A stretch of 64,000 bases of DNA from Paraburkholderia adhaesiva (GTDB lineage: Bacteria > Pseudomonadota > Gammaproteobacteria > Burkholderiales > Burkholderiaceae). How positions within the stretch are numbered: the first letter of the stretch is position 1; every line of letters begins with the position of its first letter. This document shows positions 7,198-42,130 of this stretch, one piece after another. Made by a program: the position numbers and the translations under genes. The notes beneath the pieces were generated by a model. That model saw only the letters and a program-made list of their open reading frames with translations. It ran no database searches and was not told the DNA's origin. The DNA lies in NCBI RefSeq assembly GCF_021390575.1, contig NZ_JAJEJQ010000001.1, positions 744,001 through 808,000 on the forward strand. The letters are read 5' to 3'.

Positions 7198-10100
7198 ATG
7201 AACAAGGGACGATTCAGGAAGGTCTTCAGTAAGCGGTTGGGCATGCTTGTGGCCGTCGAGGAGACTGCAAAGAGTCAGGGCAAACAGCCGGGAGAAGGCG
7301 GCGGTATTGCGGTTCCCGTTGTCAAGTATGGCGCTGTCTCATTATTGACCTCGATTGCTCTCGCCTTTTTGCTTGTCGATCCAGCGACAGTTCTGGCGCA
7401 GTCGCTGCCTACGGGCGGGCAGGTCGTGGGCGGACAGATCGGCATCAGCGAAAGCGGCAACACGATGACGATCAACCAGACCACGCAGCGCGGTGCGATC
7501 AACTGGAACACGTTCAACATCGGTTCGGGCAACACGGTCCAGTTCAATCAGCCTAATTCCACGTCGCAGACACTGAACCGGGTCGTGGGCGGCGTGCCTT
7601 CGAATATTCAGGGCCAGCTGCTGGCCAACGGTCAGGTGCTGATCCAGAACGCGAACGGCATCCTGTTCGGCAGCGGCGCGGTGGTGAACGTGGGGTCACT
7701 GCTTGCGACGACAAAGAATATCGATCCGACCCAGTTCATGGCGGGCGACACGCTGAACCTGAGCTCGACGGGCATCAACGCCGGGATCGTCAACAACGGC
7801 ACGATCAACGCGCAAGGCTATGTCACGCTGATCGGCGACCAGGTGCGGAACTCGGGTTCGATCACGGCGCCGGGCGGCAATGTGGTGCTGGCCGCGGGGG
7901 ACAGCGCGACGGTGGCGCTGAATAACGGGCAGGGGATCTCAGTCACGCTGAACAATGCCACGGCCAACGCGCTGGTGGACAACAGCGGGAATATCCAGAC
8001 GGGCAACGGGACGGTGCTGCTGACTGCTCGCGGCGCCGATACGGTGCTTGAGACCGTGATCAACATGTCTGGCGTGGTCAAGGCGGGAACCGTGGTGGCC
8101 GACGCGGGCAACACGGGCGATGCGATCGTGACGGGCACAATCGACGCCTCGAACACGACGCCGGGTGGCGTGGGCGGCACGGTTGTCGTCACGGGTGACC
8201 GGGTTGGCGTGCTTGGAAACGCCAGCATCAACGTGAGCGGCGATGCCCAGGGCGGAACGGTGATCCTGGGCGGCGACTCCCTGAATCACGTGTCCAACAG
8301 CTCAGCCGCATCGCTGATCTCGCGCGTGAACTTTGCGAACCTGACCGTGGTGGGTGCAGGCGCAACGATCGACGCGGGATCGGCGCACGGTAATGGCGGT
8401 TTCGTGGAGACGTCGGGTCATGACCTGGACGTTGCGGGCACCATCACGGCGGCGGCGGCCAATGGTCGCGCGGGTGAGTGGCTGATCGACCCGACGAACG
8501 TGACCATCAGTACCGGGACGGACGCGAACTATTCCGGAAACCTGGGTGACGGCACGTTTAGTGGCGGCAGCAACACGACCGCGACAGTGAGTAGTGCCAC
8601 GATCAGCAACTCGCTGAGCGCCGGCACGAACGTGACGATCACGACGGCGAGCAGCGGCACTGCGACGGGCACCATTACGCAGCAGGCGGGTGCGGATATC
8701 GTTGACACCTGCACCAGTGAGACCGCGCTGACGATGCTGGCCAACGGCAGCATCACCCTCAACGGCAACATTACTGCTACGGGCGGCGGTGCGCTGGACC
8801 TGAACCTGATGGCCGATATCGGCAATAACGGTTCGGGCACAGTGACTACGTCCACAGGGACAAAGATCGATCTCGCTGGCGGTGCGCTCAATGTCTCGGG
8901 CAACACGACAAGCGGAAACGCCGTCAACCTCAGCGGTAACCTGACCAACATCGGCAGCGGCCTGGTCACCGGTAATGCGACCACCGGCACGGGTGTGCTG
9001 CTGGCGACAAATGTCGGTCTCCAGAACGACAGCAGCAGTCTGAACATTTCCGGCAACTCGACCAGCGGCGTTGGTGTGAATGTGTCTGCGTCGAACCTGG
9101 CGGTGGGCGTAGGCAGCCTGAACATCTGTGGCAGCTCGAATACCAGCAGCGGCGTTCAGGTGAATTCGAACCTGAACGTAAGCAACGGCTCGCTGAACAT
9201 CGTCGGAAACACGCGCAGTACCACTGCCGGGGCTGCAGGTGTGAACCTGTCCGGGAACATCACGGTAAATGAAGGCGGGACACTGAACATCAGTGGCGTG
9301 TCAAGTTGTACGAGTGCCGCCCAGGTGTCGGGTGTCTACGTCGGCGGAAGTTCGACGACCATTCTCGGCAACGCCGCGATCACTGGCAGCTCGAACTCAA
9401 CTTCGGAAGGTGCCTATGCCACCCTGTATGGCGTTGGTGTCGGCTTTAACACGGCCCTGACCGTCTCTGGCAATGGCTCGTTGACCGTGACGGGTACGGG
9501 AACCGGCACGGACGGCGTCGGCGTGGCGTGTCTGAGCGTTGTCAACGTCGCTGGCGGTGAGCTTGTCCTCAACGGGACGTCGAACTCCGGAATGGGGGTG
9601 CAGTCGCTTGGCACCGTGAACATTGGTGGCGGGGTGTTCAGCATCATCGGCCAGTCGCAGACAAGTTACGGTATCGGTCGGGCAGTAGCCGCTGGTTCGA
9701 GCCCGCTCAGCGTCACGGGCGGCACCGCGATATTCAATGGGACGACGAATACCGGCGGTGCGGGCGTGTGGTGGCGTGAGGACGGCACCACAAATGGCAC
9801 GACGGTATCCGGAAACGCCAGCCTGACCATCGTCGGGAGTGCGACAAATGGGACTGGCTACGGCGTGTGCGTCGGCGGCAACGTGGCCGTGGTGGGCGGT
9901 GGAAGCTTTACGGTTACGGGCACCGCGAGCAGCGGTACGGGTGTCAATGTACAGGGCGGCTCCATCAATATGCCGGGTAACGGCACGGTAAATATCACGG
10001 GTGTGTCGACTAACACGGCCGGAAGTGGCAGTGGCGTTTATCTGCAGAACTGCATCAGCACGAACGTCGGCACCGTCACCATCAACGGTACGGCCCAGGG

Positions 10101-13100
10101 TTCAGGTATCGGCCTGTGCCTGTCTTCCGGGGCAGCAGTTGGGGGTACCGGTAACCTGACGCTGATCGGCAGTTCGAACAGCCAGGTTGGCGTGTCCCTG
10201 AATAACGTGCAGATAACCGGCGGCACACTGGCTGTGAGCGGCCAGTCGAACAGCTCCTACGGTGTCTACACGGCCAGTGCGCTGAATATCTCCGGTGGTG
10301 CGCTGAATATCACGGGCGTATCGAATAGCTCGACGGGTTTTTACGACACCAGCACGGTGAGTGTGACCAATGGCGGTGTCGCGACGATCAGCGGTACGAC
10401 GAACGGCGGCAGCGCCGCTGGCGTGTGCACGACGGGTGCCGTGACGGTCGGTAACGCGAGTACGCTGACCATTACCGGTACGGCGAACAACGCCACCGGC
10501 AGCAGCGCTGGTGTCTATCTGGCTAGCGCAGTGAATGTGAGCGGTGGCGCATTGAATGTCGCCGGTACGTCGAACAGTTCCTACGGCGTGTACGGATGCA
10601 GCTCGGTGAACGTGACCAATGGTGGTGTCGCGACCATCAGCGGTACGACGAACGGCGGTAGTAGCGCTGGCGCGTACGTGGCTGGGACCGTTTCGGTCGG
10701 CAACGCGAGTTCGCTGAGCGTTACCGGTATTGCGAGCAATACGGCTGGTAGCGGAACTGGCGTGTACGTGGGCAACGCGCTGGCTGTGTCGGGCGGCTCC
10801 GTGACGCTCAACGGCACATCGGCTGGTTCTGGCACCAGTGTGGGCCTGGCCTCGGGTGCGACGGTCAGTGGTGCCGGCGTCCTGACGCTCATCGGCACGG
10901 CGAATACCGGCGTAGGCCTGAACATGTCGGGCGTATCGGTTACCGGCAACGGAACGTTGAACGCCACGGGTACCTCGAACGCGACCTACGGTGTTAGCGG
11001 ACTCGGTTCATCGCTGACTGTGAGCTCCGGCAATGTGACCATCAATGGCACGTCGCAAGGCGATGTCTCTGGTGTGAACCTGACGGGTCCGGTGGTAGTG
11101 AATGGCACCGGCAACCTGACGCTTACGGGTGCATCTGATAGTGGGACAGGTCTGGACCTGTCGCAAGGGGTCTCGGTTAGTGCCAATGGCACGCTGAACG
11201 TGATGGGCGAGTCCAACACGGGCGTTGGCCTTGGGCTTGTCGGCAGCAATGTCAGCCTGAACGTGACGGGCGGCAGTGCGAACCTGTCGGGTACGTCCAA
11301 TACGGGCTCAGGCGTGTACGTCAACGCGACCTTGAATGCCAGCGTTTCGGGCAATGGCACGCTGAACGTGACGGGTCAGTCCAACACGGGCGTTGGCCTT
11401 GAGCTTGCCGGCAGCAACGCCAACCTGAACGTGACGGGCGGCAATGCGAGCCTGTCGGGTACGTCGGATTCGAATTCTGGTGTTGACGTCAACACGACCT
11501 TGAATGCCAGCGTCTCGGGCAATGGCACGCTGAACGTGACGGGCGAGTCCAACACGGGTGTTGGACTTGGGCTTGTCGGCAGCAACGCCAACCTGAACGT
11601 GACGGGCGGCAATGCAAGCCTGTCGGGTACGTCCGATTCGAATTCTGGTGTTGACGTCAATACGGCCTTGAACGCCAGCGTTTCGGGCACTGGCACGCTG
11701 AACGTGACGGGCGCGTCCAACACGGGCGTTGGACTTGGGCTTGCCGGCAGCAACGCCAACCTGAACGTGACGGGCGGCAATGCAAGCCTGTCGGGTACGT
11801 CCGATTCCAATTCCGGTGTTGACGTCAATACGGCCTTGAATGCCAGCGTTTCGGGCAATGGCACGCTGAACGTGACGGGCGCGTCCAACACGGGTGTTGG
11901 ACTTGGGCTTGTCGGCAGCAACGCCAACCTGAACGTGGCGGGCGGCAAGGCAAGCCTGTCGGGTACGTCCGACGTGAATTCAGGCGTCTATGTCAATACG
12001 GCCTTGAATGTCGGCGTTTCGGGCACTGGCACGCTCAACGTGACGGGCGACTCCAACACGGGTGTTGGACTTGAGCTTGACGGCGGCAACGCCACCCTGA
12101 ACGTGACGGGCGGCAATGCCAGCCTGTCGGGTACGTCCGATTCGAATTCTGGTGTTGACGTCAACACGACCTTGAATGCCAGCGTCTCGGGCAATGGCAA
12201 GCTGAACGTGACGGGCGCGTCCAACACGGGTGTTGGACTTGAGCTTGCCGGCAGCAACGCCACCCTGAACGTGACGGGCGGCACTGCGACCCTGTCGGGT
12301 ACGTCTGATACGAATTCTGGCGTTGACATCGACACGGCCTTGAATGCAAGCGTCTCGGGCAATGGCACGCTGAACGTGACGGGCAATACGTCGACGGGCA
12401 TCGCGGTGGGTCAGGACGTCAATAGCACCCTGGACCTGAGCGGTAACGGCACGGTAACAGTCAATGGCACGGCGACGGGCAACGGGACGGGCGTGCGCCT
12501 GAACGGCAGCACGAACGTGTCGGACAACGCGACGCTGAACATCAATGGCAGTTCGGTGGACGGCATCGGGGTACTCGAGAGCATGACGCCGCACGCCACG
12601 ATGAACATCAGTGGCAATGGCGTGGTCAACGCGTTCGGCAGCTCGGTGAACGGCACGGGTAACGATTTCAACGGCGATACGCAGATCACGGGTAACGGTG
12701 CGCTGCACCTGGCAGGCACGTCGGTCAACGGCACCGCCGTGGAGCTGAGCGCGAACCTCAGTGCAACGGACAACGGCGCGATTACGGTTTCGGGTAATTC
12801 GACCAGTGGTACGGGCTTCCAGGAGGATGTGGGCAGCAGCCTGACGCTGGGTGGCAACGCGACGGCGAATATCTCGGGCAATTCGACCACGGGCGACGGC
12901 GTAGACCTGATTGGTAACACCACGTTGACGGGGAATGCCACCCTGATTGCCCAGGGCAGTTCGGATAGCGGCAATGGCCTCGGCCTGGGCGGGACGCTCA
13001 AGTCCGCGTCGGGCACGAACGTGTCGCTGGATGGTACGTCGAACACGGGTGCGGCGATCTACCTGGGCGCGGGCGATGGCCTGACGCTGGATGGCAACAC

Positions 13101-16100
13101 CACGATGAACATGGCGGGCAGCTCGAACGCGGGCACCGGCGTGGAACTCGGCAATGTCACGGTGACGGACACTGCGTCGCTGAACGTCACGGGCAGCACC
13201 GTGACGGGCGTTGGCGTGGGCCAGGACGCCAACGGGTCGCTGAATATCGGCAGCAACGGCACGGTAGCCCTCGATGGCACGGCGACGGGCAACGGGACGG
13301 GCGTGCGCCTGAACGGCAGCACGAACGTGTCGGACAACGCGACGCTGAACCTCAATGGCAGTTCGGTGGACGGCATCGGGGTACTCGAGAGCATGACGCC
13401 GCACGCCACGATGAACATCAGTGGCAATGGCGTGGTCAACGCGTTCGGCAGCTCGGTGAACGGCACGGGTAACGATTTCAACGGCGATACGCAGATCACG
13501 GGCAACGGTGCGCTTAACCTGGCGGGCACGTCGGTCAACGGCACCGCTGTGGAGCTGAGCGCGAACCTCAGCGCGACGGATAACGGCGCGATTACGGTTT
13601 CGGGGAGTTCGACCAGTGGTACGGGTTTCCAGGAGGATGCGGGCAGCAGCCTGACGCTGGGTGGCAACGCGACAGCGAACATCTCGGGCAATTCGACCAC
13701 GGGCGACGGCGTGGATCTGATGGGCAACAACACGCTCACAGGTAACGCGGCGCTCATGGTGCAGGGAAACTCGGACAGCGGCACGGGCCTGGATCTGGGC
13801 GGAACGCTGAACGCGACGTCGGGCACGACGATGTCGCTGAACGGTACATCGAACACGGGCGTGTCCATTCAGGTGGGCGTGGGCAGCGGCCTGACGCTGG
13901 AAGGCAACACGGCGCTGGACCTGGCGGGTTCGTCAAACGCAGGCATCGGCGTGGAACTCGGCAATGTCACGGTGACGGACACTGCGTCGCTGAACGTCAC
14001 GGGCAGCACCGTGACGGGCGTTGGTGTGGGGCAGGACGTCGACGGGTCGCTGAATATCGGCAGCAACGGCACGGTAACGCTCGATGGCACGGCGACGGGC
14101 AACGGGACGGGCGTGCGCCTGAACGGCAGCACGAACGTGTCGGACAACGCGACGCTGAACCTCAATGGCAGTTCGGTGGATGGCATCGGGGTACTGGAGA
14201 GCATGACGCCGCACGCCACGATGAACATCAGTGGCAACGGCGTGGTCAACGCGTTCGGCAGCTCCGTGAACGGCACGGGTAACGATTTCAACGGCGATAC
14301 GCAGATCACGGGTAACGGTGCGCTTAACCTGGCGGGCACGTCGGTCAACGGCACCGCTGTGGAGTTGAGCGCGAACCTCAGCGCAACGGACAACGGCGCG
14401 ATTACGGTTTCGGGTAATTCGACCAGTGGTACGGGTTTCCAGGAGGATGTGGGCAGCAGCCTGACGCTGGGTGGCAACGCGACGGCGGACATCTCTGGCA
14501 ACTCCAGCACGGGCATTGGCGCGGAACTGAACGGCACGACCAGTGCGTCGGGTAACGCCACGATTAACGTGTCGGGCGACTCGGGGACGAATACGGGCGT
14601 GGAGATCGGATCGAACGGTTCCACGGACGCAACCGAAAACGGCACGATCACGATCCAGGGTTATTCGACGAGCGGGACGGGCGTCGAAAACAACGGTTCG
14701 ATAAATACCGATAACGGTACAACCCATATTACGGGCAACTCGGCCAGTGGTACGGACGTTGCGAATAACGGCACGATCAATACGACCGGCAATGGCTCGA
14801 CGACCATCTCAGGCAATCTTACGAACGACGGTACGATCGACACCAGCAATGGCGGGATGACCGATGTCAACGGCAGCCTGTCGAACAACGGGACGGTGGC
14901 GACGGACAACGGCTCGCTGAACGTCAACGGCAGCGTGGACAACAGCGGCACGCTGAATACGACCGGTGACAACGGCACGACCAGCATCGGTGGTGACCTG
15001 AACAACAGCGGCAATGTCAGCACGACCGACAACGGCTCGCTGAACGTGGGCGGCAACGTCACGAACGACGCGAACGGCACGATCGACACCAGCAATGGCG
15101 GCACGACTGATGTTAACGGCAGCCTGTCGAACAACGGGACGGTGGCGACGGATAACGGTTCGCTGAACGTCAACGGCAGCGTGGACAACAACGGCACGCT
15201 GAATACGACCGGTGACAACGGCACGACCAGCATCGGTGGTGACCTGAACAACAGCGGCAATGTCAGCACGACCGACAACGGCTCGCTGAACGTGTCGGGT
15301 AACGTCACGAACGACGCGAACGGCACGATCGACACCAGCAATGGCGGCACGACTGATGTCAACGGCAGCCTGTCGAACAACGGGACGGTGGCGACGGACA
15401 ACGGCACGCTGAACGTCAACGGCAGCGTGGACAACAACGGCACGCTGAACACGACGGACAACGGCACGACCAGCATCGGTGGTGACCTGAACAACAGCGG
15501 CAACGTCAGCACGACCGACAATGGCTCGCTGAATGTCGGTGGCAACGTCACGAACAACGGGACGGTCGACACGGACAACGGTTCGCTGAACGTCAATGGC
15601 AGCGTAGACAACAACGGCACGCTGAACACGACCGGTGACAATGGCACGACCAGCATCGGCGGCGACCTGAACAACAGCGGCAATGTCAGCACGACCGACA
15701 ACGGCTCGCTGAACGTGTCGGGTAATGTCACGAACGACGCGAACGGCACGATCGACACGAGCAATGGCGGCACGACCGTTGTCAACGGCAGCCTGTCGAA
15801 CAACGGGACGGTGGCGACGGATAACGGTTCGCTGAACGTCAATGGCAGCGTGGACAACAACGGCACGCTGAACACGACCGGTGACAACGGCTCGACGAAC
15901 ATCGGTGGCGACCTGAACAACAGCGGCAATGTCAGCACGACCGACAACGGCTCGCTGAACGTGTCGGGTAACGTCACGAACGATGCGAACGGCACGATCG
16001 ACACGAGCAATGGCGGCACGACTGATGTCAACGGCAGCCTGTCGAACAACGGGACGGTGACGACGGATAACGGTTCGCTGAACGTCAACGGCAGCGTGGA

Positions 16101-19100
16101 CAACAACGGTACGCTGGACACGACCGGTGACAACGGTTCGACCAGCATCGCTGGTGACCTGAACAACAGCGGCAATGTCAGCACGACTGACAACGGCTCG
16201 CTGAACGTGGGCGGTAACGTCACGAACGACGCGAACGGCACGATCGACACGAGCAATGGCGGCACGACCGATGTCAACGGCAGCCTGTCGAACAACGGGA
16301 CGGTGGCGACGGATAACGGTTCGTTGAACGTCAACGGCAGCGTGGACAACAACGGCACGCTGAACACGACCGGTGACAACGGCACGACGAACATCGGTGG
16401 TGACCTGAACAACAGCGGCAATGTCAGCACGACCGACAACGGCTCGCTGAACGTGGGTGGCAACGTCACGAACGACGCGAACGGCACGATCGACACGAGC
16501 AATGGCGGCACGACTGATGTCAACGGCAGCCTGTCGAACAACGGAACGGTGACGACGGATAACGGTTCGCTGAACGTCAACGGCAGCGTGGACAACAACG
16601 GCACGCTGAATACGACCGGTGACAACGGCACGACCAGCATCGGTGGTGACCTGAACAACAGCGGCAATGTCAGCACGACCGACAACGGTTCGCTGAACGT
16701 GGCTGGCAACGTCACGAACGACGCGAACGGCACGATCGACACGAGCAATGGCGGCACGACCGATGTCAACGGCAGCCTGTCGAACAACGGGACGGTGACG
16801 ACGGATAACGGTTCGCTGAACGTCAACGGCAGCGTGGACAACAACGGCACGCTGAATACGACCGGTGACAACGGCACGACCAGCATCGGTGGTGACCTGA
16901 ACAACAGCGGCAATGTCAGCACGACCGACAACGGTTCGCTGAACGTGGCTGGCAACGTCACGAACGACGCGAACGGCACGATCGACACGAGCAATGGCGG
17001 CACGACCGATGTCAACGGCAGCCTGTCGAACAACGGGACGGTGACGACGGATAACGGTTCGCTGAACGTCAACGGCAGCGTGGACAACAACGGCACGCTG
17101 AACACGACCGGTGACAACGGCACGACCAGCATCGGCGGCGACCTGAACAACAGCGGCAATGTCAGCACGACCGACAACGGCACGCTGAACGTGGCTGGCA
17201 ACGTCACGAACGACGCGAACGGCACGATCGACACGAGCAATGGCGGCACGACCGATGTCAACGGCAGCCTGTCGAACAACGGGACGGTGGCGACGGATAA
17301 CGGTTCGTTGAACGTCAACGGCAGCGTGGACAACAACGGCACGCTGAATACGACCGGTGACAACGGCACGACCAGCATCGGTGGTGACCTGAACAACAGC
17401 GGCAATGTCAGCACGACCGACAACGGTTCGCTGAACGTGGCTGGCAACGTCACGAACGACGCGAACGGCACGATCGACACGAGCAATGGCGGCACGACCG
17501 ATGTCAACGGCAGCCTGTCGAACAACGGGACGGTGACGACGGATAACGGTTCGTTGAACGTCAACGGCAGCGTGGACAACAACGGCACGCTGAACACGAC
17601 CGGTGACAACGGCACGACCAGCATCGGTGGTGACCTGAACAACAGCGGCAATGTCAGCACGACCGACAACGGTTCGCTGAACGTGGCTGGCAACGTCACG
17701 AACGACGCGAACGGCACGATCGACACGAGCAATGGCGGCACGACCGATGTCAACGGCAGCCTGTCGAACAACGGGACGGTGACGACGGATAACGGTTCGC
17801 TGAACGTCAACGGCAGCGTGGACAACAACGGCACGCTGAACACGACCGGTGACAACGGCACGACCAGCATCGGTGGTGACCTGAACAACAGCGGCAATGT
17901 CAGCACGACCGACAACGGTTCGCTGAACGTGGCTGGCAACGTCACGAACGACGCGAACGGCACGATCGACACGAGCAATGGCGGCACGACCGATGTCAAC
18001 GGCAGCCTGTCGAACAACGGGACGGTGACGACGGATAACGGTTCGCTGAACGTCAACGGCAGCGTGGACAACAACGGCACGCTGAACACGACCGGTGACA
18101 ACGGCACGACCAGCATCGGCGGCGACCTGAACAACAGCGGCAATGTCAGCACGACCGACAACGGTTCGCTGAACGTGGGCGGTAACGTCACGAACGACGC
18201 GAACGGCACGATCGACACCAGCAATGGCGGCACGACCGATGTCAACGGCAGCCTGTCGAACAACGGGACGGTGACGACGGATAACGGTTCGCTGAACGTC
18301 AACGGTAGCGTGGACAACAACGGCACGCTGAACACGACCGGTGACAACGGCACGACCAGCATCGGTGGTGACCTGAACAACAGCGGCAATGTCAGCACGA
18401 CCGACAACGGCACGCTGAACGTGTCGGGTAACGTCACGAACAACGGTACGATCGACACGAGCAATGGCGGCACGACCGATGTCAACGGCAGCCTGTCGAA
18501 CAACGGGACGGTGACGACGGATAACGGATCGCTGAACGTCAACGGCAGCGTGGACAACAACGGCGCGCTGAATACGACAGACAACGGCACGACCAGCATC
18601 GGTGGTGACCTGAACAACAGCGGCAATGTCAGCACGACCGACAACGGCTCGCTGAACGTGGGTGGCAACGTCACGAACGATGTGAACGGCACGCTGGACA
18701 CCAGCAATGGTGGGGCGACGAACGTCAACGGCAGTGTTGATAACAACGGCACGATCGCCACGGACAACGGATCGCTGAACGTCAACGGCAGCGTGGACAA
18801 CAACGGCACGCTGAACACGACGGACAACGGCTCGACGAACATCGGTGGTGACCTGAACAACAGCGCCAATGTCAGCACGACCGACAACGGCTCGCTGAAC
18901 GTGGGCGGTAATGTCACGAACAACGGGACGGTCGACACGGATAACGGATCGCTGAACGTCAACGGCAGCGTAGACAACAACGGCACGCTGAACACGACCG
19001 GTGACAATGGCTCGACCAACATCGGTGGCGACCTGAACAACAGCGGCAATGTCAGCACGACGGACAACGGCTCGCTGAACGTGGGTGGCAACGTCACGAA

Positions 19101-31100: not shown

Positions 31101-34100
31101 CAACAGCGGCAATGTCAGCACGACCGACAACGGCTCGCTGAACGTGGGTGGCAACGTCACGAACGACGGGACGGTCGACACGGACAACGGTTCGCTGAAC
31201 GTCAACGGCAGCGTGGACAACAACGGCACGCTGAACACGACCGGTGACAACGGCACGACCAACATCGGTGGTGACCTGAACAACAGCGGCAATGTCAGCA
31301 CGACGGACAACGGCTCGCTGAACGTGGGTGGCAACGTCACGAACGACGGGACGGTCGACACGGACAACGGTTCGCTGAACGTCAACGGCAGCGTGGACAA
31401 CAACGGCACGCTGAATACGACCGGTGACAACGGTTCGACCAGCATCGGTGGTGACCTGAACAACAGCGGCAATGTCAGCACGACCGACAGCGGCTCGCTG
31501 AACGTGGGTGGCAACGTCACGAACGATGCGAACGGCACGCTGGACACGACAGACAACGGCTCGACCAGCATCGTTGGCGACCTGAACAACAGCGGCAACG
31601 TCAGCACGACTGACAACGGCTCGCTGAACGTGGGCGGTAACGTCACGAACGACGCGAACGGCACGATCGACACCAGCAATGGCGGCACGACTGATGTCAA
31701 CGGCAGCCTGTCGAACAACGGGACGGTCGACACGGATAACGGTTCGCTGAACGTCAACGGCAGCGTGGACAACAGCGGCACGCTGAACACGACCGGTGAC
31801 AACGGCTCGACCAGCATCGGTGGTGACCTGAACAACAGCGGTAACGTCAGCACGACCGACAACGGCTCGCTGAACGTGGGTGGCAACGTCACGAACGACG
31901 GGACGGTCGACACGGACAACGGTTCGCTGAACGTCAACGGCAGCGTGGACAACAACGGCACGCTGAACACGACCGGTGACAACGGCACGACCAACATCGG
32001 TGGTGACCTGAACAACAGCGGCAATGTCAGCACGACCGACAACGGTTCGCTGAACGTCGCTGGCAACGTCACGAACGACGCGAACGGCACGATCGACACC
32101 AGCAATGGCGGCACGACTGATGTCAACGGCAGCCTGTCGAACAACGGGACGGTCGACACGGACAACGGTTCGCTGAACGTCAACGGCAGCGTGGACAACA
32201 ACGGCACGCTGAACACGACCGGTGACAACGGCACGACCAACATCGGTGGTGACCTGAACAACAGCGGCAATGTCAGCACGACCGACAACGGCTCGCTGAA
32301 CGTGGGTGGCAACGTCACGAACGACGGGACGGTCGACACGGACAACGGTTCGCTGAACGTCAACGGCAGCGTGGACAACAGCGGCACGCTGAACACGACC
32401 GGTGACAACGGCTCGACCAGCATCGGTGGTGACCTGAACAACAGCGGTAACGTCAGCACGACCGACAACGGCTCGCTGAACGTGGGTGGCAACGTCACGA
32501 ACGACGGGACGGTCGACACGGACAACGGTTCGCTGAACGTCAACGGCAGCGTGGACAACAACGGCACGCTGAACACGACCGGTGACAACGGCACGACCAA
32601 CATCGGTGGTGACCTGAACAACAGCGGCAATGTCAGCACGACCGACAACGGTTCGCTGAACGTCGCTGGCAACGTCACGAACGACGCGAACGGCACGATC
32701 GACACCAGCAATGGCGGCACGACTGATGTCAACGGCAGCCTGTCGAACAACGGGACGGTCGACACGGACAACGGTTCGCTGAACGTCAACGGCAGCGTGG
32801 ACAACAACGGCACGCTGAACACGACCGGTGACAACGGCACGACCAACATCGGTGGTGACCTGAACAACAGCGGCAATGTCAGCACGACCGACAACGGCTC
32901 GCTGAACGTGGGTGGCAACGTCACGAACGACGGGACGGTCGACACGGACAACGGTTCGCTGAACGTCAACGGCAGCGTGGACAACAACGGCACGTTGAAC
33001 ACGACCGGTGACAACGGTTCGACGAACATCGGTGGTGACCTGAACAACAGCGGCAATGTCAGCACGACCGACAACGGCTCGCTGAACGTGGGTGGCAATG
33101 TCACGAACGACGGGACGGTCGACACGGACAACGGTTCGCTGAACGTCAACGGCAGCGTGGACAACAACGGCACGCTGAACACGACCGGTGACAACGGCAC
33201 GACCAACATCGGTGGCGACCTGAACAACAGCGGCAACGTCAGCACGACCGACAACGGCTCGCTGAACGTGGGTGGCAACGTCACGAACGACGGGACGGTC
33301 GACACGGACAACGGTTCGCTGAACGTCAACGGCAGCGTGGACAACAACGGCACGCTGAACACGACCGGTGACAACGGCACGACCAACATCGGTGGTGACC
33401 TGAACAACAGCGGCAATGTCAGCACGACGGACAACGGCTCGCTGAACGTGGGTGGCAACGTCACGAACGACGGGACGGTCGACACGGACAACGGTTCGCT
33501 GAACGTCAACGGCAGCGTGGACAACAACGGCACGCTGAATACGACCGGTGACAACGGCTCGACCGACATCGGTGGTGACCTGAACAACAGCGGCAACGTC
33601 AGCACGACCGACAACGGCTCGCTGAATGTGGGTGGCAACGTCACGAACGACGGGACGGTCGACACGGACAACGGTTCGCTGAACGTCAACGGCAGCGTGG
33701 ACAACAACGGCACGCTGAATACGACCGGTGACAACGGTTCGACGAACATCGCTGGTGACCTGAACAACAGCGGCAATGTCAGCACGACCGACAACGGCTC
33801 GCTGAACGTGGGTGGCAACGTCACGAACGATGCGAACGGCACGCTGGACACGACAGACAACGGCTCGACCAGCATCGGTGGCGACCTGAACAACAGCGGC
33901 AACGTCAGCACGACGGACAACGGCTCGCTGAACGTGGGTGGCAACGTCACGAACGACGGGACGGTCGACACGGACAACGGTTCGCTGAACGTCAACGGCA
34001 GCGTGGACAACAACGGCACGTTGAACACGACCGGTGACAACGGCACGACGAACATCGGTGGTGACCTGAACAACAGCGGCAATGTCAGCACGACCGACAA

Positions 34101-35211: not shown

Positions 35212-35222
35212 TGGCGAGTTCG

Positions 35223-35262
35223 CTGTACCGGTTGCAGGGCAACGCGCCCTGCACCGGTACAG
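35223..35262. terminator. Strong stem-loop just after the adhesin stop codon
   Basis: CTGTACCGGT, one extra T, then GCAGGGC pairs across a short loop with GCCCTGC then ACCGGTACAG. The stem starts 11 bp after the stop codon. There is no T-run because the IS3-family element begins exactly at the base of the 3' arm. It could be a terminator or attenuator between adhesin and TpsB genes; the call is by structure only. Confidence 0.55.
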
Positions 35263-35349
35263 AGAGGTGGCCGCGCAAATTCGGACAGTCGGATAAGTGG
35301 TTTGGCCGGGGCCTGAGCCAGCGATAATGCTGGCAAAGGAACCGAGGAA

Positions 35350-35658
35350 ATGACGAAGAGAACCCGACGGACGCACTCAGCGGCGTTCAAAGCGAAAGTG
35401 GCACTGGCAGCGGTCAAAGGTGAGCGCACGCTGGCCGAACTGGCACAGCAGTTTGATGTACATCCGAACCAGATCACGGAATGGAAGCGGCAGTTGCAGG
35501 AGCGTGCGGCAGACGTGTTTGGTGCGACAGGTGCACCGTCGAGCGATCCGCCGGTGGACGTGAAAACGCTGCACGCGAAGATCGGGCAGTTGACGCTGGA
35601 GAACGATTTTTTGTCAGGAGCGCTCGGCAAAGCCGGACTGCTGAGCGCAAAGCGATGA
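35350..35658 (+). CDS. IS3-family transposase OrfA
   Basis: This 102-residue protein starts [20 protein letters not shown] and has a helix-turn-helix ([20 protein letters not shown], about residues 30-50) for binding the IS ends. A leucine-zipper-like tail ([20 protein letters not shown]) follows. This is the standard layout of the IS3-family first frame. It overlaps the OrfB frame, and a slippery heptamer lies near its end. GAGGAA lies six bases before the ATG. It is inferred to act in transposition, alone as a regulator and fused to OrfB as the transposase. Confidence 0.92.
35607..35613 (+). promoter_or_regulatory. Candidate -1 frameshift slippery heptamer T TTT TTG
   Basis: In the OrfA frame the codons are GAT TTT TTG, so the heptamer T TTT TTG sits correctly phased for a -1 slip. 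OrfB is in the -1 frame relative to OrfA and is open across this point. A slip would give an OrfAB fusion joining ENDF to FVRSARQ. Programmed -1 frameshifting is the rule for IS3-family elements. Confidence 0.6.
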
Positions 35659-36485
35659 TTGACTGTACGCATGCGCTGCCGGTTTCGCGACAGACGCGAC
35701 TGGTTGGCATCGCGAGATCGAGCGCATATTACCGGGCGCAGCCGGTCAGCGAGGTCGATCAGTTGCTGATGCGGCGAATCGACGAACTGCACATGGAGTT
35801 CCCATTTGCAGGGGCGCGGATGCTGGCGCGCCTGTTGCGCCGGGAAGGCCATGAGGTGGGTCGCCGTCGCGTACGCACGCTGATGAAGCGCATGGGCGTC
35901 GAGGCGCTGTACTGCAAGCCGAACACGAGCCGCCGCAACGCGCAGCACAAGATCTGGCCGTACCTGCTGCGCGGCATGAAGATCGAGCGTGCCAATCAGG
36001 TGTTCGCCCTCGACACGACGTACATTCCGATGGCGCGCGGCTTCGTGTACCTGACGGCAGTGGTGGACTGGGCGAGCCGCAAGATTCTCGCGTACCGGGT
36101 CGCCATCACGCTGGAAGCCACGCACGCCGTCGAGGCGCTGGAAGAGGCGTTCGCCCGCTACGGACTGCCCGACATCGTGAACACCGATCAGGGTAGCCAG
36201 TTCACGGCGGGCGCGTTCACCGAGGCGGTGCTGAGCCGGGGCGTGCGGCTGTCGATGGACGGCAAAGGGGCCTGGCGCGACAACGTGTTCGTCGAACGGG
36301 TGTGGCGCAGCATCAAGTACGAAGAGGTCTACCTGAAAGCGTACGAGTCGGTCAGCCATGCCCGGCGCTCCATCGGCGAATACGTCGAGCTGTACAACCG
36401 GAAACGGCCCCATTCGAGCCTGGCGGATCAGACCCCGGATGAGGCATACTTCGCGACGCTGCCTGCGATCAAATCGGCAGCATGA
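35655..36485 (+). CDS. IS3-family transposase OrfB (rve integrase core)
   Basis: This is the catalytic part of the transposase, 276 residues from ATG 35655. That ATG overlaps the OrfA stop region, and the frame continues upstream for the OrfAB fusion. The HTH_21-like region ([20 protein letters not shown]) precedes an RNase-H-fold integrase core. The DDE triad is visible as Asp120 (FALDTTYIP), Asp178 (VNTDQGSQF) and Glu214 (DNVFVERVW), giving DD(35)E spacing. The C-terminus has [19 protein letters not shown], typical of the family. No frameshift or stop is seen, so the element looks functional. Confidence 0.93.
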
Positions 36486-36547
36486 TTGCCTCGGACGTTC
36501 CACTTAAAAATCTCAGATGACTGTCCGAACGAGTGAGGCCACCTCTC

Positions 36548-37135
36548 AGCGACGTTTTGCCGTCAACCGCTACCGCACCGAACGGGGATAGAGACGTCGT
36601 TCCACGAAAGTTCCGCGCGCACTGCTTGCCAGTGCTTGTCAACGAATTGCTCCGCAGTACGTGGAAATTCGGACATGTCCTAGCGGCAGCGTGATCGATG
36701 TGCGGAGCCAATTTCCAAACGAGGGTGGACGCCGCAATCGCAAAATTGACGACCGTCAGTTTTAGTGCCGACTATCGAGATGGGGTCGTTTCATATGGTT
36801 GTGCCTGCATGCTTGGCAGGGCAACCTATAAGCACGCCGTCAGATACGGGGACCAGTGAGCATTTCAGTGGTAGTGGCCCTTGTAGCGCTGCGCAAGCAG
36901 CATGATCGATCGAAGCCAGGATTCCAGTGCCGCATGAGGCGATGGCAACGGTGCAGCCAGGTGGCAGGTTCTGGTTGCGCGTGCATCCCTTCGACCAGCT
37001 TGAACGGTCGGAGATTTAACACTTGATGAGTACTGCAATGGTGTTGTGCCGGAACGGCAAGCATTTTTGATAGTAGTTGTCTGCTTTGATTGGCGTTTTG
37101 GTATGTGCCAGTCCGTCCGGGTAGGTTAATAAGTC
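36548..37135. other. Gene-free stretch between the IS3 element and tpsB
   Basis: This is about 590 bp with no convincing coding potential. At about 36663-36678 it contains AAATTCGGACATGTCC. That shares 11 bases (AAATTCGGACA) with the left inverted repeat of the neighbouring IS and might be a relic end or chance. The region before 37136 is AT-richer and must supply tpsB with a promoter if the IS blocks read-through from the adhesin gene. No strong -35/-10 pair stood out. Confidence 0.5.
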
Positions 37136-38845
37136 ATGCGTGCAATCAAACGACGCGAATTGGGTTGGACTCGGGCTCGACAGTGGTTTGTTCAGGCTGG
37201 AGTCTGGACGGCAGCAGGGCTTTGCGGCGCGCTGACCGACCCTGGCGTACAGGCTGCCGAGCCTGCGACCTCTTCCGCCAGCGCGGTCACGAACGCTCCC
37301 GTCACGGTACATGTATTTCCATCCGGCAGTGCGCAGGATGCGGCCGTTCAGGCGGCGCTGCGCGATGCCTTGCAGCAGAGCACGTTGCCAACAACGTTGC
37401 AGGAGGTCGACCAGTGGTCGACACGTCTCACTGCCGACTTGCGCAAGGGGGGATTCCCTCTTGGTCAGGTGCTGATGACGCAGCAGGATTGGGAAGCTCG
37501 CTCCAAGACGGGACAGTTGGTGTTCACGGCCTTCCCGGGCCGCGTAAGCGAGATCGTCATCCATAACAAGTCACGTGTGGCGGACGACCGGCTCCGGAGC
37601 ATTGTGACGCACGCATTGTGCGGGAGCGCGACGCTCGGCGAGGATTGTCTGTTCCAGACCTCGCGTTTTGAGCGGACCACTCAACTGCTGCAAGATCTCC
37701 CGGGCGTGGCGCTCGACGGTGCTCCGCAGTTCGCGCCAGGCACCGGCACGGGTACGGTGAGGGTCGAGTTCCCGGTGACGGAGAAGGGAAAGCCCGTCTC
37801 GGTGAGCGCGTCGATCGATAACAACGGGATTGAGACGACAGGGCGCACGCGCGCCGGAGTGAGCGTCTCCGCCAATAACTACTTCGGGCTCGGAGAAGAT
37901 TACGCGTTCACGATCATGGGTACCGACAAGCGGATGTGGACCGGGTCGGTGGCCGGAAGTATTCCGATCTTCTCCGACGGTCTACGGCTGACTGCTGGCT
38001 TCACCCGGCAGCAATATTCCGTTCTGGCCAGCGGAACGCCTCTGGCCGGTGTAGCCAACACGGTCTCCGCGGGTTTTCTTTACCCCTTTACGCGAGGCCT
38101 CGACAGGAACGTCTGGGGGGGGCTGTCGCTGCTGCATACCAACACGTCCGTCGAGTTTAGCGATTACGGTGTCGGGACACGCAGCAAGCTCGACTCAGTG
38201 CAACTCTCGCTGACGGCCAATAACGGCGATCGCGCACAGCAGTTGCGTACCAACGTATGGAGTGCTCAGAGTGCGTTGACCGTAGGTCACCAGCGTAACG
38301 ATGACCCCAGCGATTCCGTAACTCAGCGCGGAGGGACTTACGTCAAGGCGACGGGCACCGGCTTTGGCACCTATGCGCTGGACCGCGCAGGCAACCTGTT
38401 CCTGAGTGGACGCATCACGGGCCAGTTGGCGGACCGGAACCTGGATTCGAGCGAGCAGCTCATGCTCGGCGGCCCGACGGCTGTCCGCGCGTACCGCCCC
38501 GACGAGCCGTCAGCCGACGAAGGCATTGTTGCGAATGTGGGGCTGTACCGGCGGTTTTCTGTAGCCGCGGGCCACCAGATCCAGCCCGGAGTTTTTGTCG
38601 ACTACGCGATCGCCCGCATGAACCACAGCCCATGGACGAACTGGGCGTCCAGCTACCCCGGGGTGCCCAACGTAAAAAATCGCCGGAATCTCGCCGGTTA
38701 CGGAGTGAGCGTGGACTGGCTCACCCCCTACGGTGCAACTGTTTCGGCATCTGTCGCAAAGCCATTTGGTTTCTCGGATGGCTCATGGGTTGAGCCGGGC
38801 CGCAAGCCCGTGCAGTTCTGGCTCGGTGTCACCTGGAATCACTGA
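37136..38845 (+). CDS. TpsB outer-membrane transporter (HMW1B/FhaC/ShlB family)
   Basis: This 569-residue protein secretes the adhesin across the outer membrane. It has a Sec signal peptide (about residues 1-41, ending VQA) and POTRA domains at about 55-215, including GQLVFTAFPGRVSEIVIHN. A C-terminal 16-strand barrel follows. The conserved loop-6 motif appears as LGGPTAVRAYRPDE, with VRAY at 450-453 in place of the usual VRGY/F. Cys162 and Cys171 form a C-x8-C pair in the POTRA region. The last residue region FWLGVTWNH ends in aromatic strands as expected for a barrel. It is 29 bp upstream of the N-glycosyltransferase gene and probably co-transcribed with it. The IS element separates it from its adhesin. 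No strong ribosome-binding site is visible. Confidence 0.93.
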   Translation: MRAIKRRELGWTRARQWFVQAGVWTAAGLCGALTDPGVQAAEPATSSASAVTNAPVTVHVFPSGSAQDAAVQAALRDALQQSTLPTTLQEVDQWSTRLTADLRKGGFPLGQVLMTQQDWEARSKTGQLVFTAFPGRVSEIVIHNKSRVADDRLRSIVTHALCGSATLGEDCLFQTSRFERTTQLLQDLPGVALDGAPQFAPGTGTGTVRVEFPVTEKGKPVSVSASIDNNGIETTGRTRAGVSVSANNYFGLGEDYAFTIMGTDKRMWTGSVAGSIPIFSDGLRLTAGFTRQQYSVLASGTPLAGVANTVSAGFLYPFTRGLDRNVWGGLSLLHTNTSVEFSDYGVGTRSKLDSVQLSLTANNGDRAQQLRTNVWSAQSALTVGHQRNDDPSDSVTQRGGTYVKATGTGFGTYALDRAGNLFLSGRITGQLADRNLDSSEQLMLGGPTAVRAYRPDEPSADEGIVANVGLYRRFSVAAGHQIQPGVFVDYAIARMNHSPWTNWASSYPGVPNVKNRRNLAGYGVSVDWLTPYGATVSASVAKPFGFSDGSWVEPGRKPVQFWLGVTWNH

Positions 38846-38874
38846 TAGCTCCGTCTTTACTTTGTGAATACATC

Positions 38875-40815
38875 ATGGCAGACAAGTTTCCACTGAACGA
38901 ATTCGAATACCACGCCTACCGGCGCGACCGCGAGCAGGCTGCGCGCACGCTGATCCGGCTTCTCGAGATCGTCGACGCCAACTACGGCGTGCTGATGGAC
39001 ATCGATACGTGGGCGCAGTCAGAATCGGCCCGCGACATCATGGATGATCACCTGCTTACGCGGCTTACGAGCGCGGTCACCACCCTTGCAACGGACCCCG
39101 AATTCTCGGTCTCGGACTTCGGCGTAGCCCGCCTGGCGTTGTTTCACCGGTGGTTGTCGGCGCTCTTTTCGGCGAGCCCTTTCCGTAACGCGGATCACAT
39201 CCTCCGTTCGCTAGGCACGGAGTCGGACGCCAAGAATATCCTGCAGCTGCGCAACGCCGAATCGCGGAAGTTCCAGCTCTTTTACCTGACCGACTCCGAG
39301 GTGCGGCTCGACTGGGATGTTTTCTGGGAATTCGACAAGGTGCGTGCGGCCAACCTTGCTATTTCCATTCTTTCCACTCGGCTGATGGCATCGCCTGCGG
39401 CTCACGAAAAGCGGGAAATGCTGCTGCGCTGGTTGCCGCCACGCTTGCCCGAGCTGGAGTGGGATCAGTTGCCCGGCGGCGTCATCCACGATGCCTACAT
39501 GCACTGCTCGTATGCCGACTTGCCCAGCAAGCACGACATCAAGCGCTCCATCAACAAGCTGATCGAGCGGAAACTCGAAAGTCTGGAGATGTTCGACGTG
39601 ACCCGTCCGGCACAGCCGCCGGCACACGGCGAAAAACCGGTCATGCTGGTCGTGCTGGAGTGGTTTTCCAAGAATCACTCGATCTACCGGACCCACTCGC
39701 AGACGATGGTGGCCATGCGTGACAAGTTCCACTTGGTCGGCATGGGCTACGAGAACCGGGTTGACGACGTCGGCAGGGAAGTGTTCGACGAGTTTATCCC
39801 GCTGAAGGGCGCTCACCTCTGGGAGCATGCAGCCCACGTGCGTGAGGTGAGTGAGACTCGCAACGCACAGGTTATGTACATGCCCAGCGTTGGGATGTTC
39901 CCGATCACGATGGTTCTTGCATGCTTGCGCGTCGCGCCACTGCAAATGATGGCGCTGGGCCATCCGGCGACGACCCATGGACACGCGATGGATTACGTCG
40001 TCGTGGAAGAGGACTACGTGGGTGACGAGGCATGCTTCAGCGAGAAGCTGCTGAAACTTCCCCGCGATGGGATGCCATACCGTCCGCCGGCAGCGATGAC
40101 GCAGTTGAAGCTCGAGCAAGGGCACCTCGGGGCGCGTTCGACCCCGGATACGGTCCGAATTGCGGTGGCGGCTACCATCATCAAGCTGAACCCGGGGTTC
40201 CTGCGCATGTGCGGACAGATCGTGCGCGAGGCGAAGGTGCCCGTCGAGTTCCACTTCCTGGTGGGCCAGGCCAGCGGGATCACCTATCCGCAGCTTTGCC
40301 ACATTATCCGGCGTCTGGTGGGCAAGGAAGCTGTCACGCACAAGCACCAGAACTATGAAAGCTACATGAAGGTGATCGCCGACTGCGACATGTTCATGAA
40401 TCCGTTCCCGTTCGGCAATACCAACGGGATTGTGGATACTGTCTGGGCAGGGCTCGTGGGCGTGTGCAAGACCGGACCGGAAGTGAATGAGCACATCGAC
40501 GAGGGTATGTTCAGGCGGCTCGGTTTCCCGGAGTGGACGATTGCTGACACGCATGAGGACTACAAGGCGGCCGCATTGCGGATGATCCACAACGTTGAGG
40601 AACGTCACCAGCTTGCTGCGGAGCTGGCCGGCCCGCAGGCGATCGAGAAACTGATCTTCAAGGGGCGTCCAGAAATTCTGGGCGAGCGGATCGTGGCGCT
40701 GTGGCGAGGACGCTTTGCTGCTGCCGTTCCGACCGATACGGGCAAGTCCGATACCGGCAAGTCCGATTTCGGCAAACGCAAGAAGAAGCGGGGTAGAACG
40801 CCAGTAGCCGCGTGA
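38875..40815 (+). CDS. HMW1C-type cytoplasmic N-glycosyltransferase (GT41-related)
   Basis: Known family role: transfer of glucose (or galactose) from UDP-sugar to Asn in NX(S/T) sequons of a partner adhesin in the cytoplasm. The 646-residue protein is co-linear with Actinobacillus NGT and Haemophilus HMW1C. It has an N-terminal all-alpha domain, HDAYMHCSY (205-213), HSIYRTHS (268-275), GHPATTH (362-368), KLNPGFL (Lys437), NPFPFGNTNGIVD (509-521) and GLVGVCKTGPEVNEHIDEGM. Lys437, Asn517 and Asp521 correspond to the Actinobacillus residues Lys441, Asn521 and Asp525 as I recall them. A 28-residue C-terminal extension has two TGKSD motifs and then KRKKKRGR, absent from the roughly 620-residue prototypes. 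The adjacent adhesin is saturated with NX(S/T). It starts 29 bp after tpsB and its stop overlaps the next gene's ribosome-binding site. It lacks the TPR repeats of ordinary O-GlcNAc transferases. Confidence 0.92.
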   Translation: MADKFPLNEFEYHAYRRDREQAARTLIRLLEIVDANYGVLMDIDTWAQSESARDIMDDHLLTRLTSAVTTLATDPEFSVSDFGVARLALFHRWLSALFSASPFRNADHILRSLGTESDAKNILQLRNAESRKFQLFYLTDSEVRLDWDVFWEFDKVRAANLAISILSTRLMASPAAHEKREMLLRWLPPRLPELEWDQLPGGVIHDAYMHCSYADLPSKHDIKRSINKLIERKLESLEMFDVTRPAQPPAHGEKPVMLVVLEWFSKNHSIYRTHSQTMVAMRDKFHLVGMGYENRVDDVGREVFDEFIPLKGAHLWEHAAHVREVSETRNAQVMYMPSVGMFPITMVLACLRVAPLQMMALGHPATTHGHAMDYVVVEEDYVGDEACFSEKLLKLPRDGMPYRPPAAMTQLKLEQGHLGARSTPDTVRIAVAATIIKLNPGFLRMCGQIVREAKVPVEFHFLVGQASGITYPQLCHIIRRLVGKEAVTHKHQNYESYMKVIADCDMFMNPFPFGNTNGIVDTVWAGLVGVCKTGPEVNEHIDEGMFRRLGFPEWTIADTHEDYKAAALRMIHNVEERHQLAAELAGPQAIEKLIFKGRPEILGERIVALWRGRFAAAVPTDTGKSDTGKSDFGKRKKKRGRTPVAA

Positions 40816-40822
40816 GGAGCCC

Positions 40823-41767
40823 ATGGCCCGGATCATCTATCTAGCCTATGGGGTGCCGAGGACTGGCGGGGATTTCGTGAACATCGAACACGTGTGTGCA
40901 CTGAACGCCATGGGGTTCGACGCGACTCTCGCGTATTTCGACGATGGCGTCGACCCAAGCCAGATCGCCTGTCGTTCAGCACATTTCAATGACGTGCGGT
41001 ACAAGCCGGATGACGTCGTGGTGTGCTTCGAGGATAACCGTGAGGCGCTGGAACGGGCCGCGCGATTGTCCTGCCGCAAGGTGTTGCATAACCAGAATAC
41101 CTGGCTGCTGATGCAGGCACTGCAGTCGCTCGAAGAGATCGGGGCGATGGGATTCGAGTCGGTTATCTGCCCATCGCGTTACGGAATCGAGATGATGCAG
41201 GAGGCGGGCTACGACGGGCCCGTCGAACTGATCAGCCCCTATGTTCCGGATTTTTTCGCGCCACAGGAGAAATCGCTGGCCATTGCATGGTCGCCGAGGA
41301 AGCGACCACTTGAAGCGGCCTACGTGCGCACAGCGTTCCGGTCAAAGTATCCGCAGCACCGGGACGTGCCCTGGATACTGATTCAGCATATGCCGCGCGA
41401 GGAGGTTGGCCGGGTGCTCGGCACGGCGGCTATTTACGCCAGTTTCGCGAAACACGAGTCGGTCTGCCTGTCGGTGCTCGAAGCGATGAGATCTGGCTGC
41501 ATCGTCGTGGGCGACCACGGCGGAGCCGGGCTGGAGTATGCGGACGTGACCAACGGCCTGTGGCTGCGTGAACACGAGTACGAGCTGTTTGCTGATGCGC
41601 TGAATCACGCGGTGGAGATTTTCCGGTGCGGCGGGGCCGACAACGCATTCTCGCTTGCCGCGAGGAAGACGGCCCGTCGCTACAGCGAGAGTGATTTCGG
41701 CGCGATGCTTGAGCGTTACTGGAGCGGCCACGGGCTCAGTCGAAGCGGAAGAGCAATCCATGCATGA
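40823..41767 (+). CDS. GT4-like glycosyltransferase, probable glycan-extending partner
   Basis: This is a 314-residue GT-B glycosyltransferase. The N-terminal half (ARIIYLAYGVPRTGGDFVN) has acceptor-domain character. The C-terminal half has ASFAKHESVCLSVLEAMRSG, which gives the E-x7-E nucleotide-sugar motif (Glu212, Glu220), followed by VVGDHGGAGLEY. GAGGAG overlaps the stop of the N-glycosyltransferase gene eight bases upstream, so the two are translationally linked. In Actinobacillus an NGT is paired with an alpha-6-glucosyltransferase that elongates the Asn-linked glucose; by analogy this gene may extend the adhesin's N-glycans. Sugar and linkage cannot be read from the sequence. It could instead act on another surface glycan. 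Confidence 0.8.
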   Translation: MARIIYLAYGVPRTGGDFVNIEHVCALNAMGFDATLAYFDDGVDPSQIACRSAHFNDVRYKPDDVVVCFEDNREALERAARLSCRKVLHNQNTWLLMQALQSLEEIGAMGFESVICPSRYGIEMMQEAGYDGPVELISPYVPDFFAPQEKSLAIAWSPRKRPLEAAYVRTAFRSKYPQHRDVPWILIQHMPREEVGRVLGTAAIYASFAKHESVCLSVLEAMRSGCIVVGDHGGAGLEYADVTNGLWLREHEYELFADALNHAVEIFRCGGADNAFSLAARKTARRYSESDFGAMLERYWSGHGLSRSGRAIHA

Positions 41768-41888
41768 AACCCGTAAGTCAGCGGTTCGCTGGGTGCACGA
41801 ACCCGCATTCGTCGACCACCATTTCCGCGGCGACGGTATCGACGTCCGGACAGGCGATGATCCGCTGCGCAGTTACGCGCACATGTAG
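41760..41888 (+). pseudogene. N-terminal remnant of a SAM-dependent methyltransferase
   Basis: A 42-residue frame starts at an ATG overlapping the previous gene by 8 bp. It encodes MHETRKSAVRWVHEPAFVDH and then HFRGDGIDVRTGDDPLRSYA. The segment FRGDGID...GDDPL matches the first glycine-rich motif region of class I methyltransferases often found in glycosylation clusters. The frame stops at 41888 and no downstream methyltransferase motifs exist. It appears to be the stump of a deleted gene that was once coupled to the glycosyltransferase. Confidence 0.5.
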
Positions 41889-41896
41889 CTGCGGCG

Positions 41897-42130
41897 ATGG
41901 ACAAGCCCGTCCGGCTGATGCTGCAGTTGATCTGTGACTGGCGCTGGCATGACCTGCGAAAGGATAACCGCTGGTATCCGACGCTATAGGTATTCCACAC
42001 CAGCTGGAATCGCAGCAGCCGGGACTGGAATGGTGTGGTTGGCCGGATACGACGCGAGTCGCAGGTGTGGCGAATCTGGCTGACGTATCGGGCGGATCCC
42101 GGCGAACGCACCGCGGCCGATTGGGTATGA
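41897..42130 (+). pseudogene. C-terminal remnant of a TPR/glycosyltransferase-associated protein
   Basis: The frame from 41897 reads LICDWRWHDLRKDNRWYPTL, an in-frame TAG at 41987-41989, then VFHTSWNRSSRDWNGVVGRI and RRES. It resembles the tail of TPR-containing SPINDLY-like proteins, which end in WRW..D..WYPT.R.FR....DW..V..R+. The stop replaces the expected Arg. No N-terminal part is present. Together with the methyltransferase stump just before it, this suggests one deletion fused two neighbouring genes. The call rests on recalled patterns. Confidence 0.4.

Follow-up and report, generated by a model that had tools for sequence, protein, structure and literature searches.

A candidate HMW1C-type glycosylation system with a giant, sequon-rich two-partner secretion exoprotein in Paraburkholderia adhaesiva

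Described systems and the locus

In the HMW1A/HMW1B/HMW1C system of Haemophilus influenzae, a two-partner secretion (TPS) exoprotein, TpsA, that carries NX(S/T) sites (sequons) is co-encoded with TpsB and an HMW1C-type enzyme, and the accessible text of PMC3983070 gives at least 31 modified sites on HMW1, with only some of its NX(S/T) sites decorated. The same three components are encoded in a 64-kb stretch of Paraburkholderia adhaesiva DNA (hereafter the window; G000:C1:744001-808000, part of a 6.97-Mb genome in five contigs), where an initial annotation had proposed an HMW1A/B/C-type system enlarged far beyond its prototypes, with TpsB, an HMW1C-type enzyme and a second glycosyltransferase downstream of the exoprotein. 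Domain matches (PF03865, PF18071/PF18254 and GT4) bear out this gene order, and the TPS region of the window TpsA is homologous to EtpA and to the HMW1 secretion domain. Together with conserved enzyme residues and a sequon excess that, among the TPS proteins compared, is seen in the enzyme-linked but not in the unlinked ones, these sequence features support the proposal. We consider it likely that the HMW1C-like enzyme glucosylates many TpsA asparagines in the cytoplasm before the protein is exported as a predicted beta-helical fibre.

Compared to HMW1, the window system has 1,153 sequons, a Lys/Arg-free array, a C-terminal domain of about 130 amino acids (aa) and a GT4 gene. HMW1 has its tether Cys pair in the last 20 residues, whereas the window pair (Cys 9162/9171 of 9,337) lies about 170 residues before the end; we rejected the pair as a general tether, with a near-end pair present in 4 of 26 distinct C-termini, all four of this genome. 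The EtpA/EtpB/EtpC system of enterotoxigenic Escherichia coli is likewise comparable, EtpA being the closest solved TPS domain (8vba). In EtpA, according to PMC11463764, hexoses are densely attached to Asn along a beta-helix and stack on adjacent strands; of the 166 Asn analysed, 96 were canonical sites, and a molecule bore about 61 glycans on average. The window TpsA has about 12 times the sites. The HMW1 and EtpA substrates offer tens to about a hundred sites, compared to more than 1,000 sequons in the window substrate.

In the rimO-ngt-agt locus of Actinobacillus pleuropneumoniae, as in the window, an N-glycosyltransferase (NGT) gene is followed by an Agt/AmGGT-family glucosyltransferase gene. 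In E. coli, a sequon was extended with as many as 29 repeat units by NGT and Agt (PMC5303269); AmGGT did not use glycopeptides (PMC12159676). Unlike the window, the rimO-ngt-agt locus encodes no adhesin or transporter. The TibA/TibC system differs in having a hyperglycosylated autotransporter with heptose on Ser; a GT9-like companion gene is found in kin loci and at a paralogous locus on contig C4, and as a remnant in the window.

A review of 2014 already catalogued HMW1C-like genes next to TPS genes in Burkholderia, with the hypothesis that their products modify the adjacent TpsA (PMC3983070). In the open-licence literature, we found no Paraburkholderia NGT/adhesin or haemagglutinin-glycosyltransferase TPS system and no HMW1C glucose polymer in TPS; the works listed by a further search dealt with known systems. 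As far as that literature was searched, the new features are the scale of the system, a sequon excess that is graded and was set against controls, arrays free of Lys and Arg, a genome with four giant TpsA proteins, and a TPS adhesin operon that combines an NGT with an Agt-like gene.

Sequon excess in enzyme-linked TpsA proteins

The order of a thousand sequons that had been extrapolated from the repeats agrees with our count of 1,153 in 9,337 aa, or 12.3 per 100 aa, which consumes 61% of all Asn, while composition shuffles of the protein (n=200) gave 508 +/- 17 sequons with a maximum of 551. The 323 parsed rungs of the protein hold a mean of 3.0 sequons each. The reported density of 9 sequons per 60 residues was correct, and that of 12 per 82 holds in the stretch that was checked (36 in 246), with 13 in a composite unit of the commonest rungs. 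The added mass at one hexose per sequon, put at about 150 kDa, computes to 187 kDa on an 897-kDa chain; full occupancy is unlikely, however, because HMW1 and EtpA sites are just partly decorated. The motif GGNVT had been assigned to each unit; GNVT does occur 98 times and GGNVT 60 times, hence the latter is absent from some units. An Asn-Val-Thr peptide is glucosylated by ApNGT, according to the part of PMC12159676 available.

We compared TPS proteins that are linked to an HMW1C-like enzyme with those that are not. The unlinked set comprised 20 TPS proteins of the genus (2.7-4.4 thousand aa, picked by length and not beside an HMW1C-like gene) and four of this genome, and the linked set comprised 56 distinct frames of at least 250 aa with a TPS or C-terminal-domain match in enzyme loci, plus one TPS frame from genome G121; frames lying 20 kb away or on a different contig (L059, L063, L065 and L073) were excluded, and the gene shared by L058 and L092 was counted once. 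The 20 unlinked genus proteins held 1.5-2.3 sequons per 100 aa, and enrichment across all 24 was 0.85-1.30x with a median of 1.00, which led us to reject a general richness in sequons among the TPS proteins of the genus. In the linked frames (n=57), median enrichment was 1.81x (Mann-Whitney p 2e-10, relatedness ignored), and 48 of 56 exceeded 1.29x. Linked TpsA proteins were graded in density, with Pseudomonas at the low end (about 2 per 100 aa) and Cupriavidus and Paraburkholderia at the high end (13). The enzyme's choice of sites, left open in the accessible text of PMC3983070, could be tested on this natural series of about 2 to 14 sequons per 100 aa. At four Polynucleobacter loci (L128, L131, L137 and L141), long sequon-rich frames with 4.8-5.6 per 100 aa adjoin the enzyme, and TPS frames of up to 6,796 aa occur in the same genomes.

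The sequons could instead be a by-product: beta-helix repeats rich in Asn, Gly, Ser and Thr would have been amplified for their structure, with the enzyme modifying few of the sequons. When the spacing from Asn to Ser/Thr was scanned from -6 to +6, +2 peaked in all four giant TpsA proteins of the genome (2.2-2.4x), compared to 0.9-1.1 in its four other TPS proteins. The -2 spacing was second-highest in the giants (1.7-1.8x), and because the reversed motif [ST]xN is also raised, repeat pattern alone explains part of the sequon excess. In favour of this reading, Asn-Gly favours turns, 27 of the 36 sequon Asn in a 246-residue stretch lie in predicted turns, recent duplication has homogenised the arrays, and sequon +2 places are more variable than other Ser/Thr places. 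On the other hand, the excess is absent from the 24 unlinked proteins and is attained by differently built repeats. At the P. phenoliruptrix locus L064, which has 54-aa units, the densest 246 aa hold 50 sequons for 50 Asn, likely by convergence; kin thus seem to attain the density with repeats of another build. In an analysis that assigned 1,437 of 1,447 rungs of the giants to six types, variants at sequon +2 places retained Ser/Thr in 308 of 432 cells, compared to 1 of 97 at other Ser/Thr places, and sequon Asn varied in 1.4% of cells compared to 6.8% for other Asn; homogenised arrays make these cells dependent. We regard a by-product origin as unlikely.

Several observations nevertheless count against glucosylation of many TpsA asparagines. 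The window protein contains the reversed motif [ST]xN 889 times (1.75x). Variation is higher at sequon +2 places (9.9% of cells) than at other Ser/Thr places (2.8%), with Ser/Thr lost in 124 of 432 variant +2 cells. Repeat copies are not independent, as with the 84 DNA-identical units of a 9,576-aa paralogue. Eight of 56 linked frames were at or below 1.29x; most of the eight are fragments or antisense pieces, but they include the ordinary 1,318-aa TpsA proteins of L162 and L169 (1.28 and 1.24x). The linked frames are also mutually related, and some are fragmentary. Finally, the 4,665-aa TPS frame of G121, about 3 kb behind the enzyme, held 1.6 sequons per 100 aa and reached 1.35x in the part read.

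The three further giants of the genome are 4,648, 9,576 and 17,080 aa long with 447, 1,268 and 2,206 sequons, while its four other TPS proteins have 10 to 58 and no excess. The four giants span 443 to 1,644 kDa; TpsA proteins were described in 2017 as about 100-650 kDa (PMC5422565, accessible part). Because 6,950 residues of the window protein hold no Lys or Arg, its main array cannot be cut by trypsin; its 17 Lys and 24 Arg all lie elsewhere in the chain. The corresponding Lys/Arg-free stretch of the 17,080-aa paralogue extends to 13,966 aa. Such arrays could explain poor visibility of these proteins in trypsin-based proteomics. The 17,080-aa protein (1.64 MDa; L016-L019, G000:C4:173050-224382, - strand) is an orphan whose first 330 residues are 91% identical to the window TpsA, and the flanks searched (13 kb below, 15 kb above) gave no TpsB or NGT match. 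The 9,576-aa paralogue (L020-L021, G000:C4:389288-418018, + strand) owes its 84 DNA-identical copies of a 246-base unit to either very recent amplification or an assembly effect.

The glycosyltransferases and their distribution

The window enzyme matched AaNGT over residues 9-608 and ApNGT over 9-604, at 525-543 bits. Its UDP-sugar-binding motifs had been called intact, and 14 of the 15 ligand and sequon residues of AaNGT (listed in PMC10507012) are kept; its conserved lysine, K437, corresponds to K441 of ApNGT. PF18071, PF18254 and PF13844 scored above cut-off, in line with an enzyme that has both an AAD and a GT-B part. We filed the protein as HMW1C-like rather than as an NF049992 equivalog because the 1000-bit cut-off was unmet. 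That shortfall in the NCBIfam NGT model (636.9 of 1000 bits) speaks against the proposed activity, as does the replacement of AaNGT S495 by Gln, which is invariant across 15 aligned sequences, and the lack of a match to either the window TpsA or the window TpsB in 33 of 79 named loci. These loci come from the best 80 of 279 enzyme matches; among them, the window TpsA was matched in 43, TpsB in 39 and both in 36, and 12 of the 33 unmatched loci hold another sequon-dense frame.

HMW1C-like genes occurred in 87 of 144 genus genomes and fell into two classes. Class I (at least 57% identity to the window copy) was found in 16 genomes, the window genome included, and the 15 class I loci of other genomes had a window-TpsB match in 11 cases and a window-TpsA match in 12, with two of the three lacking the latter beginning at contig ends. 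In class II (about 40-49% identity), TpsA, TpsB and C-terminal-domain matches were found in 0 of 12 loci. The C-terminal domain of TpsA is present in all four paralogues and in 13 of 144 genus genomes, of which 12 belong to class I while the thirteenth, G101, has a short remnant; across the family, it was found in 21 of 299 genomes and 5 of 25 genera.

The genome itself holds three copies of the HMW1C-like enzyme, and the tailoring gene differs per locus, with GT4 in the window, methyltransferase/GT9 on C4 and neither matched behind the C3 enzyme. The methyltransferase and GT9-like gene follows the enzyme in most kin loci; among the 15 class I loci of other genomes, there was a long match in 12, a fragment in one and none in two. 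The second glycosyltransferase of the window, left unnamed at first, proved to be of the Agt/AmGGT kind, matching AmGGT (8xsg_A) at E 1.6e-39 with 39% identity (102 of 261 residues). Five of the six AmGGT donor-site residues (N100, K171, Y201, R203, E223 and E231) are kept, Y201 being replaced by Met. The ApAgt acceptor-site residues C18, T19, V80 and M81 correspond to R13, T14, D71 and N72, of which one in four is as in ApAgt (T14) and none as in AmGGT. Homology and position point to a putative role of GT4 in extending sugars. The family is rare, with 20 database proteins at E <= 1e-5 and a presence in 3 of 398 family genomes. Full-length GT4 stands beside the enzyme only in the window, the copy at the C4 paralogue being shortened; the other enzyme loci fetched gave no GT4 match, and an NGT search of the two other GT4-carrying genomes gave no match. 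The case for GT4 as a conserved partner of the enzyme is weakened.

At its C-terminus the window enzyme carries a basic tail, with a net charge of +8 in the final 44 residues. Basic tails are likewise present on the C4 enzyme and on one of the two copies in P. antibiotica, but not on the C3 copy or three others examined; that the window tail docks the enzyme onto the acidic TpsA chain is a guess. The tail region (40700-40815) contains a 15-base repeat. In P. antibiotica (L092/L058), two tandem enzyme genes, 84 and 80% identical to the window copy, lie behind one TpsB. Four in-frame chimeras (L070:6626-8674 and L074:6505-8382, both on the - strand, P0067 and P0074) join an ESPR and the first part of a TPS domain to the enzyme from about residue 159, with an identical junction, the sequon-binding residues kept and the first all-alpha part lost; these are possibly secreted enzymes. 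Perhaps another fusion is a frame that runs from a contig start (L076:2-2470) and has 4.1 sequons per 100 aa overall; its sequon-dense part leads into the enzyme sequence, which is present from residue 215 onwards.

Fibre model and integrity of the locus

Modelling predicts a beta-helix of three sides for the main array, in which each turn would hold about three sequons, most of them at the corners. Two points temper this prediction: Foldseek gave no match at E <= 0.001, and AlphaFold2 over-calls beta-solenoids on repeats. The Asp-Asn-Gly turns could instead form a calcium-bound solenoid like the antifreeze domain MpAFP, the sugars being incidental, which we regard as highly improbable.

In the proposed mechanism, the cytoplasm is where the enzyme would encounter the acidic chain and add glucose to many of its sequons, probably from uridine diphosphate (UDP)-glucose. 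After passage through Sec and TpsB, the chain would fold outside the cell into a fibre clad in glucose, which is predicted to stand in ladders along it. The coat may keep the Lys/Arg-free, acidic, Asn-rich solenoid soluble and protease-resistant and may serve adhesion or matrix formation. By analogy with HMW1 (PMC3983070) and EtpA (PMC11463764), the sugars would contribute to stability, retention or function. The 17,080-aa orphan might borrow the TpsB and enzyme of other loci, and the Agt-like enzyme may lengthen some glucoses, which, if true, would join protein secretion and the making of a glucan fibre in one operon. In a bolder version that we consider rather doubtful, the NGT would prime on the order of a thousand Asn, about three per turn of a triangular helix, and the Agt-like enzyme would grow alpha-1,6-glucan on them before export, yielding a protein-cored polysaccharide fibre resembling a bottlebrush; with its paralogues, the largest of 17,080 aa with 2,206 sequons, it would then form a family of sugar-coated fibres whose main arrays are invisible to trypsin-based proteomics.

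We also weighed whether the locus is decaying and the system not made, and judged this very unlikely. An IS3 element, overlooked in the first reading and present as a 100% identical copy on contig C3 of this genome as well, separates tpsA from tpsB, which argues for decay and against a functioning system, and the methyltransferase/GT9 gene is a remnant. A scan of 35150-37300, covering one promoter type, found no sigma-70-like promoter. However, the tpsA, tpsB, HMW1C-like and GT4 frames are all open and on the same strand, the C4 paralogue locus, which lacks this IS3, also leaves about 0.7 kb between tpsA and tpsB, and the three enzyme copies in the genome likewise speak against loss. Distinct variant codons in pooled rungs of the four giants numbered 106 at the third position compared to 53 and 36 at the others, with 79 synonymous and 77 not; this third-position and synonymous excess is what a translated frame would be expected to show. 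The codon-position excess and the paralogues also rule out that the 9,337-aa frame is an artefact of stop-poor repeats, and the long antisense frames look incidental. From its position, the window TpsB probably serves the window TpsA. Searches of the PDB gave no match for TpsB (single sequence) or for the TpsA C-terminal domain. The features of the locus are listed in Table 1.

Table 1. Features of the tpsA-tpsB-glycosyltransferase locus (window coordinates)
Feature	Position	Strand	Remarks
TpsA, filamentous-haemagglutinin-type exoprotein	7198..35211	+	9,337 aa, 897 kDa, isoelectric point 4.05, 1,153 NX(S/T) sequons
Extended signal peptide (ESPR)	7198..7326	+	PF13018, 45.6 bits; aa 1-43
TPS secretion domain	7396..8115	+	PF05860, 119.3 bits; aa 67-306; 7 sequons; best PDB match EtpA 8vba, E 1.5e-57
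First tandem array	11184..12384	+	168-base (56-aa) unit, 7.1 copies, with sequons
Lys/Arg-free stretch	14119..34968	+	aa 2308-9257; 6,950 aa; 1,009 sequons
Main array	14828..34679	+	rungs of 19-22 aa (mostly 19-21); 60- and 82-aa units; ~3.0 sequons per rung
C-terminal domain of TpsA	34810..35208	+	~130 aa; hydrophobic Gly-rich start
IS3-family element between tpsA and tpsB	about 35263..36547	.	strand not assigned
TpsB transporter (ShlB/FhaC)	37136..38845	+	PF03865, 59.3 bits (cut-off 22.7)
HMW1C-like N-glycosyltransferase (GT41)	38875..40815	+	PF18071, PF18254 and PF13844 above cut-off
GT4 enzyme, Agt family	40823..41767	+	AmGGT (PDB 8xsg) homologue
Remnant of methyltransferase + GT9-like gene	41760..42052	+	two end pieces

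Other observations concern relatives of the enzyme and a neighbouring gene. In P0006 (and in P0007-P0010 by precomputed domains), HMW1C-like proteins about 840 aa long, the enzyme is combined with a methyltransferase domain of the FkbM type, which is C-terminal in P0006. Public records name the enzymes P0004, P0005, P0021, P0022 and others 'peptide transporter', likely a misannotation. A record labelled as an Akkermansia metagenome-assembled genome (L121) has a TPS-TpsB-enzyme locus that resembles those of Burkholderiales and is possibly a misbinned contig. A BapA-like protein with many bacterial Ig domains is encoded downstream of the C3 paralogue (L024:15636-20000, where the fetched end cuts the protein).

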